Positions 1,025 through 35,603 of a stretch of 64,000 nucleotides of DNA are shown piece after piece; within the stretch, counting starts at the first letter, position 1, and each line of letters begins with the position of its first letter. The stretch is from an uncultured Desulfovibrio sp. (GTDB lineage Bacteria; Desulfobacterota; Desulfovibrionia; Desulfovibrionales; Desulfovibrionaceae), in contig CALVHF010000003.1 of assembly GCA_944327295.1 (NCBI GenBank), positions 62,001 through 126,000 of the forward strand, read 5' to 3'. The notes under the pieces were generated by a model, which saw only the letters and a program-made list of their open reading frames with translations, had not been told where the DNA came from and searched no databases. Made by a program: the position numbers and the translations under genes.

Positions 1025-1610
1025 TGTGCGTCCGGCATGGCGCAAGACGAGGCGGTGAAAGACTTCTGAGGGGCCCGGCAGCGGGAACCTCCAACCGAAG
1101 GACAGGGAGCTTGTCGCAAGGCACGTTCTGAAGGAAGTCCATGGCAAACCACTGACCTGACGAACAAAAAACAGCACAGGAGTCTGGCGTGTCGGAGAAG
1201 AGGGCAATGAGACTCAAGGTCCAGGAGCTGCACGGAAGGCTCGAAGGCAAGGACGGCAGGGACAAGTGGGCACGTATTGCGTCGTACCCGGGGAGGCTAC
1301 GGCAGCACTGCCGGAGCAAAACGTGCTGTGATGCGTCGGCCGGGGCAGAGGAGCTCCTTTGGCGTGAAGGCCGGAATTCCAGCGTACCCATCAGAGGAAC
1401 TGAAACTTCAGGCATGAAGAGAGAAGAGACAGAAGCCGGAGGGCACGCCCACGAGCCTGTTAGAGAGCAGGCGACGGATGCGCCGAGTGCATGAAGGGTG
1501 CATGAACATGTCTGGCAGGGACAGAGGCCCGCGGGGAATGCAAACTCTGAGTCGTACTGGTCATACTCAGGAAACCCGCCATGATACATGAGCTGTACGT
1601 CTGGCGGTGT

Positions 1611-17763: not shown

Positions 17764-17838
<75 letters not shown>

Positions 17839-17847
17839 GAACCTCAA

Positions 17848-17922
17848 GGCGGAATAGCCAAGCGGTAAGGCAGAGGTCTGCAAAACCTCTATGCTCCAGT
17901 TCGAATCTGGATTCCGCCTCCA
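17848..17922 (+). tRNA. tRNA-Cys (GCA)
   Basis: 75 bases including an encoded CCA. Acceptor GGCGGAA / TTCCGCC, anticodon loop CTGCAAA with anticodon GCA, T-loop GTTCGAATC. It follows the first Gly tRNA by nine bases. Confidence 0.97.
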
Positions 17923-17951
17923 AATCATCTTTTTCCAGCGCTTGCTCACAA

Positions 17952-18026
<75 letters not shown>

Positions 18027-18044
18027 CATATTCATCTTCTCAGT

Positions 18045-18119
18045 GCGGGAATAATTCAGCGGTAGAATGCTAGCTTCCCAAGCTGGAAGTCGCGGGTTCG
18101 AATCCCGTTTCCCGCTCCA
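18045..18119 (+). tRNA. tRNA-Gly (CCC)
   Basis: 75 bases including CCA. Acceptor GCGGGAA / TTCCCGC, anticodon loop TTCCCAA (anticodon CCC, reading GGG). It is last in the cluster; a terminator follows ten bases later. Confidence 0.96.
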
Positions 18120-31920: not shown

Positions 31921-32805
31921 CTACTTCGCCAGAAGACCTGCGTCCTGCATGGCGGTCACAAGCTTTGCGCGATCGGCAGCAGAGAGCGGGAAGAGCGGCA
32001 GGCGCATTTCCTCTTCCACCTTGCCCATGAGGGCCAGGGCTGTTTTGACCGGAATGGGGTTGCTGACCATGAACATGGCCTGATGCAGGGGAAAGAGCTG
32101 GTGGTGCAGGGTGCGGGCCTTTGCCCAATCGCCCTGCTCAAAGGCCTTCCAGAGAGCGGACATGGCCCTGGGAGCAATGTTGGAGGTCACGGAAATGACA
32201 CCGCAGCCGCCCAGTGCCCAGAGGGGGAAGGCCGTGAAATCGTCGCCGGAGAGTACGCAGAAGTCCTTGGGGCAGGCGGCGATGAGCTCGCTGCACTGTA
32301 CCATGTTGCCCGTTGCTTCCTTGACACCCACAAAGTTGGGGAATTCATGGGCCAGGCGGGCGATGGTGGCAGGCAGCATGTTGCAGCCCGTGCGGCCCGG
32401 CACATTGTAGGCAATGAGAGGAATGTCCACGGCCCTGGCCACGGTGGCGTAGTGGTGGTAGAGGCCTTCCTGCGTGGGCTTGTTGTAGTAGGGGGTAATG
32501 AGCAGGGCACCGTCCGCGCCTGCATCCTGGGCAAAGCGGGTGAGATTGATGGCTTCTATGGTGTTGTTGGAGCCGGAGCCGGCCAGGACCTTGACGCGTC
32601 CCTTGACCTGGTCAACGCAGATTTCTATGACCCGTTTGTGTTCATCGTGGGAAAGAGTTGCGGATTCGCCTGTGGTTCCACAGGGAACAAGACCACTGAC
32701 GCCTTCCTCGATCTCCCAGTCTATAAGGGCACGAAAGGCGTCTTCATCAATATTGCCATTCTTGAATGGGGTAATGATGGCTGTAAAGACTCCGGAAAAC
32801 TGCAT
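31921..32805 (-). CDS. dapA: 4-hydroxy-tetrahydrodipicolinate synthase
   Basis: 294 residues. It condenses pyruvate with aspartate semialdehyde in lysine and diaminopimelate synthesis. The ATG at 32805 follows AAGGAG. TIM-barrel motifs: GTTGES with Thr44/45, Tyr133 in AYNVPGRTG with Arg138, and Schiff-base Lys162 in VGVKEATGN. It stands alone, with a terminator downstream and a 230-base spacer upstream to gdx. Confidence 0.95.
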   Translation of the reverse strand: MQFSGVFTAIITPFKNGNIDEDAFRALIDWEIEEGVSGLVPCGTTGESATLSHDEHKRVIEICVDQVKGRVKVLAGSGSNNTIEAINLTRFAQDAGADGALLITPYYNKPTQEGLYHHYATVARAVDIPLIAYNVPGRTGCNMLPATIARLAHEFPNFVGVKEATGNMVQCSELIAACPKDFCVLSGDDFTAFPLWALGGCGVISVTSNIAPRAMSALWKAFEQGDWAKARTLHHQLFPLHQAMFMVSNPIPVKTALALMGKVEEEMRLPLFPLSAADRAKLVTAMQDAGLLAK

Positions 32806-33038
32806 AGAACTCTCCTTGGGGCACAGCCGGACCATGACGGCACAGGCGATCCGGCTCGGGATATTTGCAGCAAAACTCTTGCACAACGGGGTCACAAAAG
32901 CAAGCACGGGACTCGAAAAAGATGGCTTGGACAGTCCCGGGCTCAGGCCCTGAAACAAGGCGTTCCGCTGGAGGCATCTGAGAGCGGCAGAAGGCAGGTG
33001 CCTGCAGGGAACGAGGCAAGGCCCTGCACGTCTTGTGC

Positions 33039-33353
33039 TCAGGAAACAAGGCGCAGGCCGACAATGCCCAGGACAATCAGGGCAAGGCAGGCCAGACGCT
33101 CGAAGCTGGCGTTTTCGCCCAGAAAGAGGATGCCCACGAGCACGGAGCCTACGGCTCCTATGCCTGTCCAGACGGTATAGGCCGTGCCCAAGGGCAGCTT
33201 GCGCATGGCAAGGGAAAGCAGAAAGAAGCTGATGATCATGAAGACCAGGGTGCCCACTGTGGGCCACAGGCGGGAAAAGCCGTGGGAGAGCTTCATGCAG
33301 CCAGCCCAGGCCACCTCAAGCAGTCCGGCAATGAAAACGCAGAGCCAGGCCAT
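33039..33353 (-). CDS. gdx: Guanidinium exporter Gdx (SMR family, formerly SugE)
   Basis: 104 residues, four transmembrane helices. The start MAWLCVFIAGLLEVAWA holds the essential Glu13; LPLGTAYTVWTGIGAVG and the end LACLALIVLGIVGLRL match E. coli SugE/Gdx far better than EmrE. Gdx dimers exchange guanidinium for protons. A two-hairpin guanidine-II riboswitch occupies the leader (33376-33424), which strongly supports the substrate. GGAG lies nine bases before the ATG, where a riboswitch can control access. Confidence 0.93.
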   Translation of the reverse strand: MAWLCVFIAGLLEVAWAGCMKLSHGFSRLWPTVGTLVFMIISFFLLSLAMRKLPLGTAYTVWTGIGAVGSVLVGILFLGENASFERLACLALIVLGIVGLRLVS

Positions 33354-33375
33354 GATGGAAAACTCCGGAAGTTGC

Positions 33376-33424
33376 GAGGTCGTCCCCAGAATCTGAAAGA
33401 GGGGCCTTCAGGGGTCGTCCCCCG
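33376..33424 (-). ncRNA. Guanidine-II riboswitch (mini-ykkC)
   Basis: On the minus strand two hairpins, GGGG-ACGA-CCCC (33411-33422) and GGGG-ACGA-CCTC (33376-33387), are joined by a 23-base linker. Paired stems with ACGR tetraloops are the defining feature of mini-ykkC, where the two loops dimerise around guanidinium. The second hairpin ends about ten bases before the gdx Shine-Dalgarno sequence, consistent with translational control. Confidence 0.9.
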
Positions 33425-33474
33425 AGCCCTGCACAAGGCTTTCTGCGCAAAGGGCTTGTCCTGCCCCGTGCACC

Positions 33475-34863
33475 TTAAGGCTGCGTGCCCTGACAGAAGC
33501 GGACCACAAAGCGGTTGCCCCGCTTCCAAGTCTCGTGGTGCACGGACCAGCCCAGGCGCTCGCAGCCGCGCTGCACCAGGGAGAGGCCGAGGCCGCTGCC
33601 TGGTGTTGTGCTCAGGCCGCGCACACCGCGTTCGAACATGCGGGCGCGCACCTCCTCGTCAATGGGAGGTGCCGTGTCCGTCACCACAAAGCCGTCCCTG
33701 TTCAGACGCAGTTCAATACCCCCTTCCTGCGTGTACCTGCAGGCATTGTCAAGCAGATTGTGGACGACCAGAGCGGACAGATCCGGGTTGCCGTGGATCA
33801 TGAAGGTGTCCGGCAACGCGAGCGTGAAGCTGATGGGCCGGTTCCTGAGCAGGGGCTGCACAAAGTCCTCTTCCCTGCGTATGAGGGCCGAAAGGTCGAA
33901 GGCATGGTACTGCAGCTGTTCCGGCCGGCGTGCCAGCACAAGCATGGTATGCACCGTATCCGTCATGCCTTCAAGGGTGCGCTGCATGCGGGTGACCACG
34001 GGCTTGAGCGGCGTGTCGGCCAGGCGTGCCTCCAGAATTTCCGTGGCTCCTTGCAGAACGGTGAGAGGGGTGCGCAGCTCATGACTCACATCGCCCGTAA
34101 AGAGCTGCTCGCGGTTCAGAAAGTCGCGCAGGGATCGCTCCCTGGCCACAAAGGCCCGGGAGAGTTCGCCTACCTCGTCCTTGCGTCCGCACAAGGGGCT
34201 GGACTCCAGCGTTTCCCCGGAGTGTATGGTTTTGGCGAGGCGCACAAGCGGGGTGACAAGACGCTTGCTCAGCCAGCAGGAAAGCAGCAGGGCCGCCACA
34301 AGGCTTACGCAGCCGCAGGCAAGCGTCACGGTGAGGAGCACTTCTTCTATGTCGTCCAGATCCTTGACCCGGCCCACGACCGCATAGCAATGCTTCCTCT
34401 TTTTGTCGGCGCTCACAAAGACATAGCTTTCGGTGTCTATGCGGGTGAGTTCCTTCTTGCCCCGCTTCGGTCTGAGCTCTTCCGGGATGGTTTCGTCAGC
34501 AAACCAGGAAACGCGCAGGGACCGGGCCAGATCATGGAGCTCCTGATCGCTTCTGCCCTCCTGCTTGGCCTGGATGAGCAGGCGCAGGATGGGATCCATG
34601 TGCCAGCGCACGATGTGCGAGAGCGTCATCTCGTAGGTGACGTAGCTGCACAGCCCGAAGACAAGGCAGCTCGCCACGGCAAGACCGGCCATGGTGAGAG
34701 CAAGCCGTGTGCGCAGGGAGTGCCTGGCCATCAGCCTGTGCCAGTCATCCTTCGCAGGCAGCTGTCCCTTCAGGAAGCGGACGAGGGAGAGGCCGGCCAC
34801 GATCCTTGCGAGCGCCGCGCGAGCGCCGGTAGGCCTGGTTGAAGAGGAAGGGCTGCTGCGCAT
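33475..34863 (-). CDS. Sensor histidine kinase, QseC-like
   Basis: 462 residues from the ATG at 34863 (GGAGG upstream). Order: a cytoplasmic lead of about 50 residues, helix 1 (about 54-76), a periplasmic loop of about 100 residues rich in K, R and E, helix 2 (about 177-198), HAMP, HisKA with His261 in [12 protein letters not shown], and HATPase with NLLDNACRYTQEGG and GSGLGLSLVQ. It pairs with the response regulator 17 bases upstream and the ygiW-like gene before it, the order of ygiW-qseBC loci. The ligand cannot be deduced. Confidence 0.87.
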   Translation of the reverse strand: MRSSPSSSTRPTGARAALARIVAGLSLVRFLKGQLPAKDDWHRLMARHSLRTRLALTMAGLAVASCLVFGLCSYVTYEMTLSHIVRWHMDPILRLLIQAKQEGRSDQELHDLARSLRVSWFADETIPEELRPKRGKKELTRIDTESYVFVSADKKRKHCYAVVGRVKDLDDIEEVLLTVTLACGCVSLVAALLLSCWLSKRLVTPLVRLAKTIHSGETLESSPLCGRKDEVGELSRAFVARERSLRDFLNREQLFTGDVSHELRTPLTVLQGATEILEARLADTPLKPVVTRMQRTLEGMTDTVHTMLVLARRPEQLQYHAFDLSALIRREEDFVQPLLRNRPISFTLALPDTFMIHGNPDLSALVVHNLLDNACRYTQEGGIELRLNRDGFVVTDTAPPIDEEVRARMFERGVRGLSTTPGSGLGLSLVQRGCERLGWSVHHETWKRGNRFVVRFCQGTQP

Positions 34864-34880
34864 GAAAGCCTCCGGTCGTC

Positions 34881-35603
34881 TCAGCCGTTGTGCTGCCTGT
34901 CAGTGTCCTGCACCTCTCTGGCAACAAGAACAAAGCCCACGTGGGGAATGGTCTTGAGCAGAGGTGTGGCAAAGGGCTTGTCCATCTTGCTGCGCAGCTC
35001 GTGGATGTGGGTACGCAGGGCATCGCTGTCCGGGGGCGAATCGCCCCACAGGGTCTGTTCAAGCCTGGCCCTGGGCACAATGGCCGGAGCAGCCCGCAGA
35101 AGTTCTTCCAGAATGGCAAAGGCCGTGGGGCCGAGGCGCAGGGGAATGCCGCTACGGTGCACCGTATGGGTGGACGGATCGAGCTGCAGGTCCTCCCATG
35201 TGAGCACCTTCTGGACCTGCCGGCCCTGCGAACGGCGCACTAGGGCCCTGAGTCGCGCGTCGAGCTCCTTCATGGAAAAGGGCTTGACAAGATAGTCGTC
35301 CGCTCCGCAGTCCAGGCCCGTGACCCTGTCGGCCACGGTGTCCCTGGCCGTGAGCATGAGGATGGGCACGGGGTTGGCGTAGTCTCTGCGCAAGGTACGG
35401 CAGAGGGTAAGCCCGTCCATGCCCGGCAGCATGATGTCCAGCACGATCACGTCAAAGTGCCCGTCCACTGCCTGCCTGAGACCGACAGTGCCGCTGGCGG
35501 CACTGTCCAGCTCATAGCCCAGGGGCTCGAGAAAGGCATAGAGGTTGGCGGTAATGTCCTGATTGTCTTCCACAAGCAGGACCCTGATGTTTTTTTGACG
35601 CAT
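34881..35603 (-). CDS. OmpR-family response regulator, QseB-like
   Basis: 240 residues. The receiver has Asp56 in VIVLDIMLPGMDG and Lys108 in DDYLVKPF. The C-terminal winged helix includes LRLGPTAFAILEELLRAAPAIVPRARLEQTLWGD and THIHELRSKMDKPF. The ATG at 35603 has AGAGG upstream. It is encoded just before its kinase (17-base gap). A terminator-like hairpin separates it from the ygiW-like gene. Confidence 0.9.
   Translation of the reverse strand: MRQKNIRVLLVEDNQDITANLYAFLEPLGYELDSAASGTVGLRQAVDGHFDVIVLDIMLPGMDGLTLCRTLRRDYANPVPILMLTARDTVADRVTGLDCGADDYLVKPFSMKELDARLRALVRRSQGRQVQKVLTWEDLQLDPSTHTVHRSGIPLRLGPTAFAILEELLRAAPAIVPRARLEQTLWGDSPPDSDALRTHIHELRSKMDKPFATPLLKTIPHVGFVLVAREVQDTDRQHNG

Follow-up and report, generated by a model that had tools for sequence, protein, structure and literature searches.

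The gdx locus and its neighbourhood

The window analysed here, i.e. the whole 64-kb stretch of DNA, lies within contig 3 of a host genome of 2.99 Mb (161 contigs, 99.92% complete). The gene gdx (sugE), encoded on the minus strand of the window, is preceded by a leader which, when read 5' to 3', comprises a P1 hairpin, a linker, a P2 hairpin and a further 21 nt containing the motif GGAG, followed by the ATG at 33353. The individual features are listed below.

33408..33425, minus strand: P1 hairpin of the aptamer, 7 pairs, ACGA loop (RF01068 alignment; hairpin scan)
33389..33407, minus strand: linker between P1 and P2, the 3' end of which (33389-33394) falls within the predicted anti-Shine-Dalgarno arm (sequence; fold)
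33375..33388, minus strand: P2 hairpin, 5 pairs including one G-U, ACGA loop (RF01068; hairpin scan)
33384..33394, minus strand: predicted sequestering arm (linker end and P2 5' strand), the partner of which would be 33360-33370 if P2 is unformed (MFE fold)
33363..33366, minus strand: Shine-Dalgarno sequence GGAG, 9 nt 5' of the start codon (sequence)
33039..33353, minus strand: gdx (sugE), a 104-aa SMR protein of the Gdx type (NF008512; PF00893; residues)

The initial annotation had placed the whole unit at 33039-33424, with a 5' limit 2 bases short of that of the Rfam match, which extends to 33426. A simple scan found no sigma-70-type promoter near the leader.

Judging from profile names, the gene order in the window is response regulator, histidine kinase, riboswitch/gdx and dapA, with phoU also located downstream. 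The two-gene response regulator and histidine kinase pair (33475-35603, minus strand) is codirectional with gdx and lies directly upstream, separated by 48 nt from the Rfam match. When Gdx sequences are compared, Candidatus Desulfovibrio intestinipullorum (88%) and Desulfovibrio sp. An276 (78%) come closest among named organisms, in a listing that may omit records very near the host genome. Both carry a histidine kinase upstream of gdx as well as dapA and phoU downstream (named by eye, from similar translations), with two extra ORFs between the kinase and gdx in An276. Elsewhere in the window, Rfam matches include a group II intron (D1-D4-3) at 1110-1282 (plus strand; 78.4 bits), and a cluster of four tRNA genes is found at 17764-18116 (plus strand), two of which are identical in the Rfam alignments.

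A Guanidine-II aptamer in the gdx leader

When the window was compared with the RNA families of Rfam release 15, the Guanidine-II model (RF01068, mini-ykkC) was matched over its full length (1-48) at 33375-33426 on the minus strand. The match scores 39.1 bits, where the gathering score is 32, and has an E-value of 2.7e-4 for the search of all 64 kb. This is the only Rfam match at E≤1 in the region 32800-33600 and the only riboswitch match in the window. Its 3' end is separated from the ATG by 21 bases. The covariance model, which the initial annotation had named as the way to check its mini-ykkC assignment, therefore bears that assignment out. So does direct reading of the minus strand, which gives GGGG-ACGA-CCCC and GGGG-ACGA-CCTC separated by 23 bases, precisely as annotated. 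Both hairpins are G+C-rich, with 7 pairs in P1 and 5 in P2. A scan of both window strands for two ACGR loops on stems of at least 4 pairs each, 24-60 nt apart, retrieved a single hairpin pair, namely the element at 33375-33426; 100 dinucleotide shuffles yielded a mean of 0.04 and a maximum of 1.

Distribution and conservation among relatives

A search for RF01068 was also run across 288 genomes from the family at E≤0.001 using strict filters, for which reason the resulting counts are lower bounds; the positive control from E. coli was detected. The search returned 39 matches in 38 of the 288 genomes, and 35 of these matches scored above the cut-off. In 34 of the 39 cases an ExxW-type SMR frame starts no more than 180 nt downstream. 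Thirty-two of these frames are complete, one (L027) is truncated by a contig end, and one (L019 from 1556, genome G117) is interrupted by an in-frame stop codon. An additional case beyond the 34 is L017 (L159:4485-4528, minus strand; genome G181), where the Guanidine-II leader is followed by a gdx frame with a frame shift. The stop codon in L019 and the frame shift in L017 each reflect either decay or sequencing error. The remaining four matches (L034, L038, L040 and L041) have no gdx downstream. By eye, L038 (32.1 bits, above the cut-off) sits in an acidic coding repeat, and the weak match L041:1501-1557 (30.5 bits, below the cut-off) in an apparent array of GGGGACGAC-type repeats; both look false because of this placement, and GC-rich repeats containing ACGA are able to mimic RF01068. 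Among 80 homologous loci from named genomes, 20 were run through Rfam and Guanidine-II was present in 5 of them.

Removal of the four matches without gdx left 35 leaders, which were aligned. ACGR loops are borne on stems in all 35 and ACG is invariant in both loops, a conservation which is partly by construction because the leaders were chosen by the RNA model. The stems of the Guanidine-II aptamer covary among these leaders. Standard pairs occupy 88.4% of the cells, compared to 72.0% after shuffling (95.9% of cells are paired in P2 and 83.8% in P1), and 79 cells are changed on both sides versus 30.3 in shuffles. The covariation score is 0.429 versus 0.158, with none of 500 shuffles as high, and it does not exceed 0.162 when the structures are slid by 1-3 columns. 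One of the five stem measures was not above the shuffles, namely the number of pairs in which both sides show any change (9 versus 8.0, with 149 of 500 shuffles as high). Since the sequences are related, none of these shuffle figures should be read as a probability.

Folding of the leader and the proposed mode of control

In the predicted fold of the leader, the 5' strand of P2 together with the end of the linker (33394-33384) pairs with the Shine-Dalgarno region (33370-33360). If P1 and P2 are forced to form, the Shine-Dalgarno sequence is predicted to become more accessible, its mean unpaired probability rising from 0.06 to 0.45. Taken alone, this leader proves nothing about switching. The gap between its best fold and the P1/P2-forced fold is 4.1 kcal/mol, a value also reached by 51 of 200 sequences in which the downstream part had been shuffled (41 of 200 in a separate run), and the complete leader is no more stable than its shuffled versions (z -0.50; 48 of 200).

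The energy gap was also summed over 33 leaders, L017 and L020 being additionally omitted from the 35. The sum amounts to 107.7 kcal/mol, whereas shuffles average 40.1 and never exceed 64.5 (0 of 200 as high). The sum remains above the shuffle maximum among 26 less redundant leaders (60.5 versus 54.5) and among the 27 leaders left after removal of one six-member clade (57.1 versus 51.7). No competing fold (gap 0.0) was found in 11 of the 33. Forcing P1/P2 increased the unpaired probability of the Shine-Dalgarno sequence by at least 0.1 in 6 of the 33 leaders, decreased it by at least 0.1 in another 6 and left it within 0.1 in 21, counts that include three leaders (L004, L021 and L030) in which the wrong second hairpin was forced.

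The presence of the aptamer, its conservation and placement, and the family to which the gene belongs are shown by the sequence data. We consider it very probable that the element represents a Guanidine-II riboswitch located in the gdx 5' leader and acting as a translational ON switch. Membership of the family points to guanidinium as the putative ligand. When guanidinium is absent, P2 would open, and its 5' strand and the linker end are predicted to pair with the Shine-Dalgarno region. As guanidinium accumulates, two ions would bind the ACGA loops and P1 and P2 would kiss, as has been proposed in print for the family; P2 would then be locked and the Shine-Dalgarno sequence freed, again following the published proposal. 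More Gdx would be produced, and this protein may export guanidinium against protons in the manner established for Gdx proteins. The initial annotation spoke of the RNA as directly controlling gdx, which is what we infer from the arrangement described above. In the literature the class is treated as translational (PMC12186494, PMC9094411 and PMC5486947, these comprising a review and, for PMC5486947, a structure paper), and a stem that shares sequence with both P2 and the ribosome binding site has been proposed to exclude the folded riboswitch (PMC5486947). The modelled folding picture fits both that proposal and the translational description given in PMC12186494 and PMC9094411.

It is quite unlikely that the aptamer, although real, acts on transcription (by attenuation) or on RNA stability rather than on the start of translation. 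The competing fold of this particular leader is not stronger than chance, and in the Guanidine-II match L158 of the relative G041 a terminator-like hairpin carries P2 at its tip, both of which would accord with such an action. However, a scan revealed no terminator-like site between the aptamer and the start codon, the sole such site in 32800-33700 being located inside gdx (shuffles average 1.1). Moreover, the aptamer ends 21 nt from the ATG, with the Shine-Dalgarno sequence in between, and the class is handled as translational in PMC12186494 and PMC5486947.

The match in G041 deserves a separate description. L158:6190-6242 on the minus strand (G041:C24:27189-27241) is a second Guanidine-II match, which scores 38.7 bits and is not followed by gdx. 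Its P2 caps a long hairpin with a T run after it, resembling an intrinsic terminator (z -5.24), and the element occupies the interval separating the end of one ORF from a convergent ORF. Among 79 genomes of the genus, the 171-base neighbourhood of the element occurs in just one, G041, and the element consequently stands without comparative support. We regard as very unlikely a broader scenario according to which Guanidine-II has been rebuilt in more than one way in this Desulfovibrio group, with P2 strands serving directly as an anti-Shine-Dalgarno or anti-start arm in part of the gdx leaders and, in the sister species G041, with P2 placed at the tip of an intrinsic terminator at the 3' end of a gene. 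If true, the G041 element would show a class hitherto regarded as translational being employed at the level of transcription.

The gdx product and the genes associated with the aptamer

The solved sequences closest to the gdx product are those of the SMR proteins 8vxu (9.8e-29) and 6wk5 (4.8e-28), entries which we take to be Gdx-Clo; EmrE is more distant (8.8e-14). The product scores 129.8 bits against the NCBIfam SugE equivalog NF008512 (cut-off 126) and 108 bits against Pfam PF00893 (cut-off 23.7). Residues G10, E13, W16, S42, Y59 and W62 are all present, and E13, W16, S42, Y59 and W62 are counted among the Gdx residues in PMC7695847. Identification of a SugE/Gdx protein with Glu13 in the initial annotation is thereby upheld. 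Its WTGIGAVG helix is likewise present, starting at W62. According to the same paper, W62 is highly conserved across SMR proteins generally, and it is W16, also found here, that distinguishes the Gdx from the Qac type, in which Gly or Ala occupies the position (PMC7695847). Based on family membership, the product of 33039-33353 is probably a guanidinium exporter of the Gdx type.

The aptamer was also approached from the protein side, using 32 SMR loci of the genus chosen by protein, of which 30 were drawn from well over 100 matches and two were the other SMR genes of the host genome. Two ACGR hairpins precede all 12 of the W16-type (Gdx-type) genes and none of the 20 non-W16 genes. The comparison of related leaders that had been suggested along with the initial annotation thus came out in favour of conserved ACGR loops before Gdx-type genes.

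These observations bear on the possibility that the gene mainly exports quaternary ammonium compounds or other cations, its control by guanidine being incidental, which we judge to be very improbable. The SugE equivalog is named a quaternary ammonium exporter by NCBIfam, and resistance to this class of compound can stem from Gdx proteins, as stated in PMC12186494. Against this, the protein retains W16, S42 and W62, which belong to the guanidinium site, with W16 replaced by Gly/Ala in the Qac type (PMC7695847), and the hairpins accompany only W16-type genes among the 32 loci (12 of 12 versus 0 of 20). Finally, the notion that the leader merely displays chance GC-rich hairpins of a GC-rich genome, for which one might cite the 17 single ACGR hairpins on the same strand of the window and the false-looking family-wide matches L038 and L041, has next to no probability and was rejected in view of the RF01068 match above the gathering score, the covariation in relatives, the uniqueness of the hairpin pair in the window (1 versus a shuffle mean of 0.04) and the association with Gdx-type genes.

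Predicted guanidine handling in the host genome

RF01068 has one match in the host genome, and no match to the Guanidine-I riboswitch was found there. Of the three SMR genes present, only that at 33039-33353 is of the Gdx type; the other two form a pair nearest to MdtJ and MdtI, below the respective cut-offs. Nothing in the genome scores above the cut-off for the urea/guanidine carboxylase (TIGR02712), which extends to the whole genome the initial statement that no carboxylase is visible. The best match, a 1247-aa frame scoring 366.5 bits where 1303.85 would be required, was rejected as a guanidine carboxylase and is probably another biotin-dependent carboxylase. That statement does not carry over as readily to guanidinases: the arginase family is represented by one agmatinase (193.8 versus 174.3 bits) and a second protein below every cut-off. 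A guanidinase of this family may thus still exist in the genome.

Comparison with known guanidine systems

According to PMC9574504, roughly half of the bacteria that carry guanidine riboswitches export guanidinium rather than consume it; the element described here fits this view and alters no concept. It offers a clean example, from a Desulfovibrio lineage, of guanidine sensing that is apparently linked to export, and the genome concerned shows no carboxylase route.

With respect to the RNA, nothing of substance separates the element from Guanidine-II (RF01068) as described in PMC5486947, i.e. two G+C-rich ACGR hairpins joined by a short linker and lying near an efflux gene's ribosome binding site; here P2 includes one G-U pair and the linker measures 19-23 nt, the exact figure varying with the way of counting the stems. 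The RNA class is shared with the leader of E. coli sugE (gdx), which is controlled by a Guanidine-II element (PMC9094411). With respect to the protein, E13, W16, S42, Y59 and W62 are all shared with the guanidinium/proton antiporter Gdx-Clo (PMC7695847); the organism differs, and guanidinium/proton antiport is what the sequence would predict for the present gene. Multidrug transporters make up 65% of mini-ykkC regulons (PMC3766115) and efflux pumps slightly over half of Guanidine-II examples (PMC5486947). The initial reading of a guanidine riboswitch in front of a Gdx exporter is supported: Guanidine-II before a Gdx exporter is the commonest known arrangement, and the finding is correct and ordinary.
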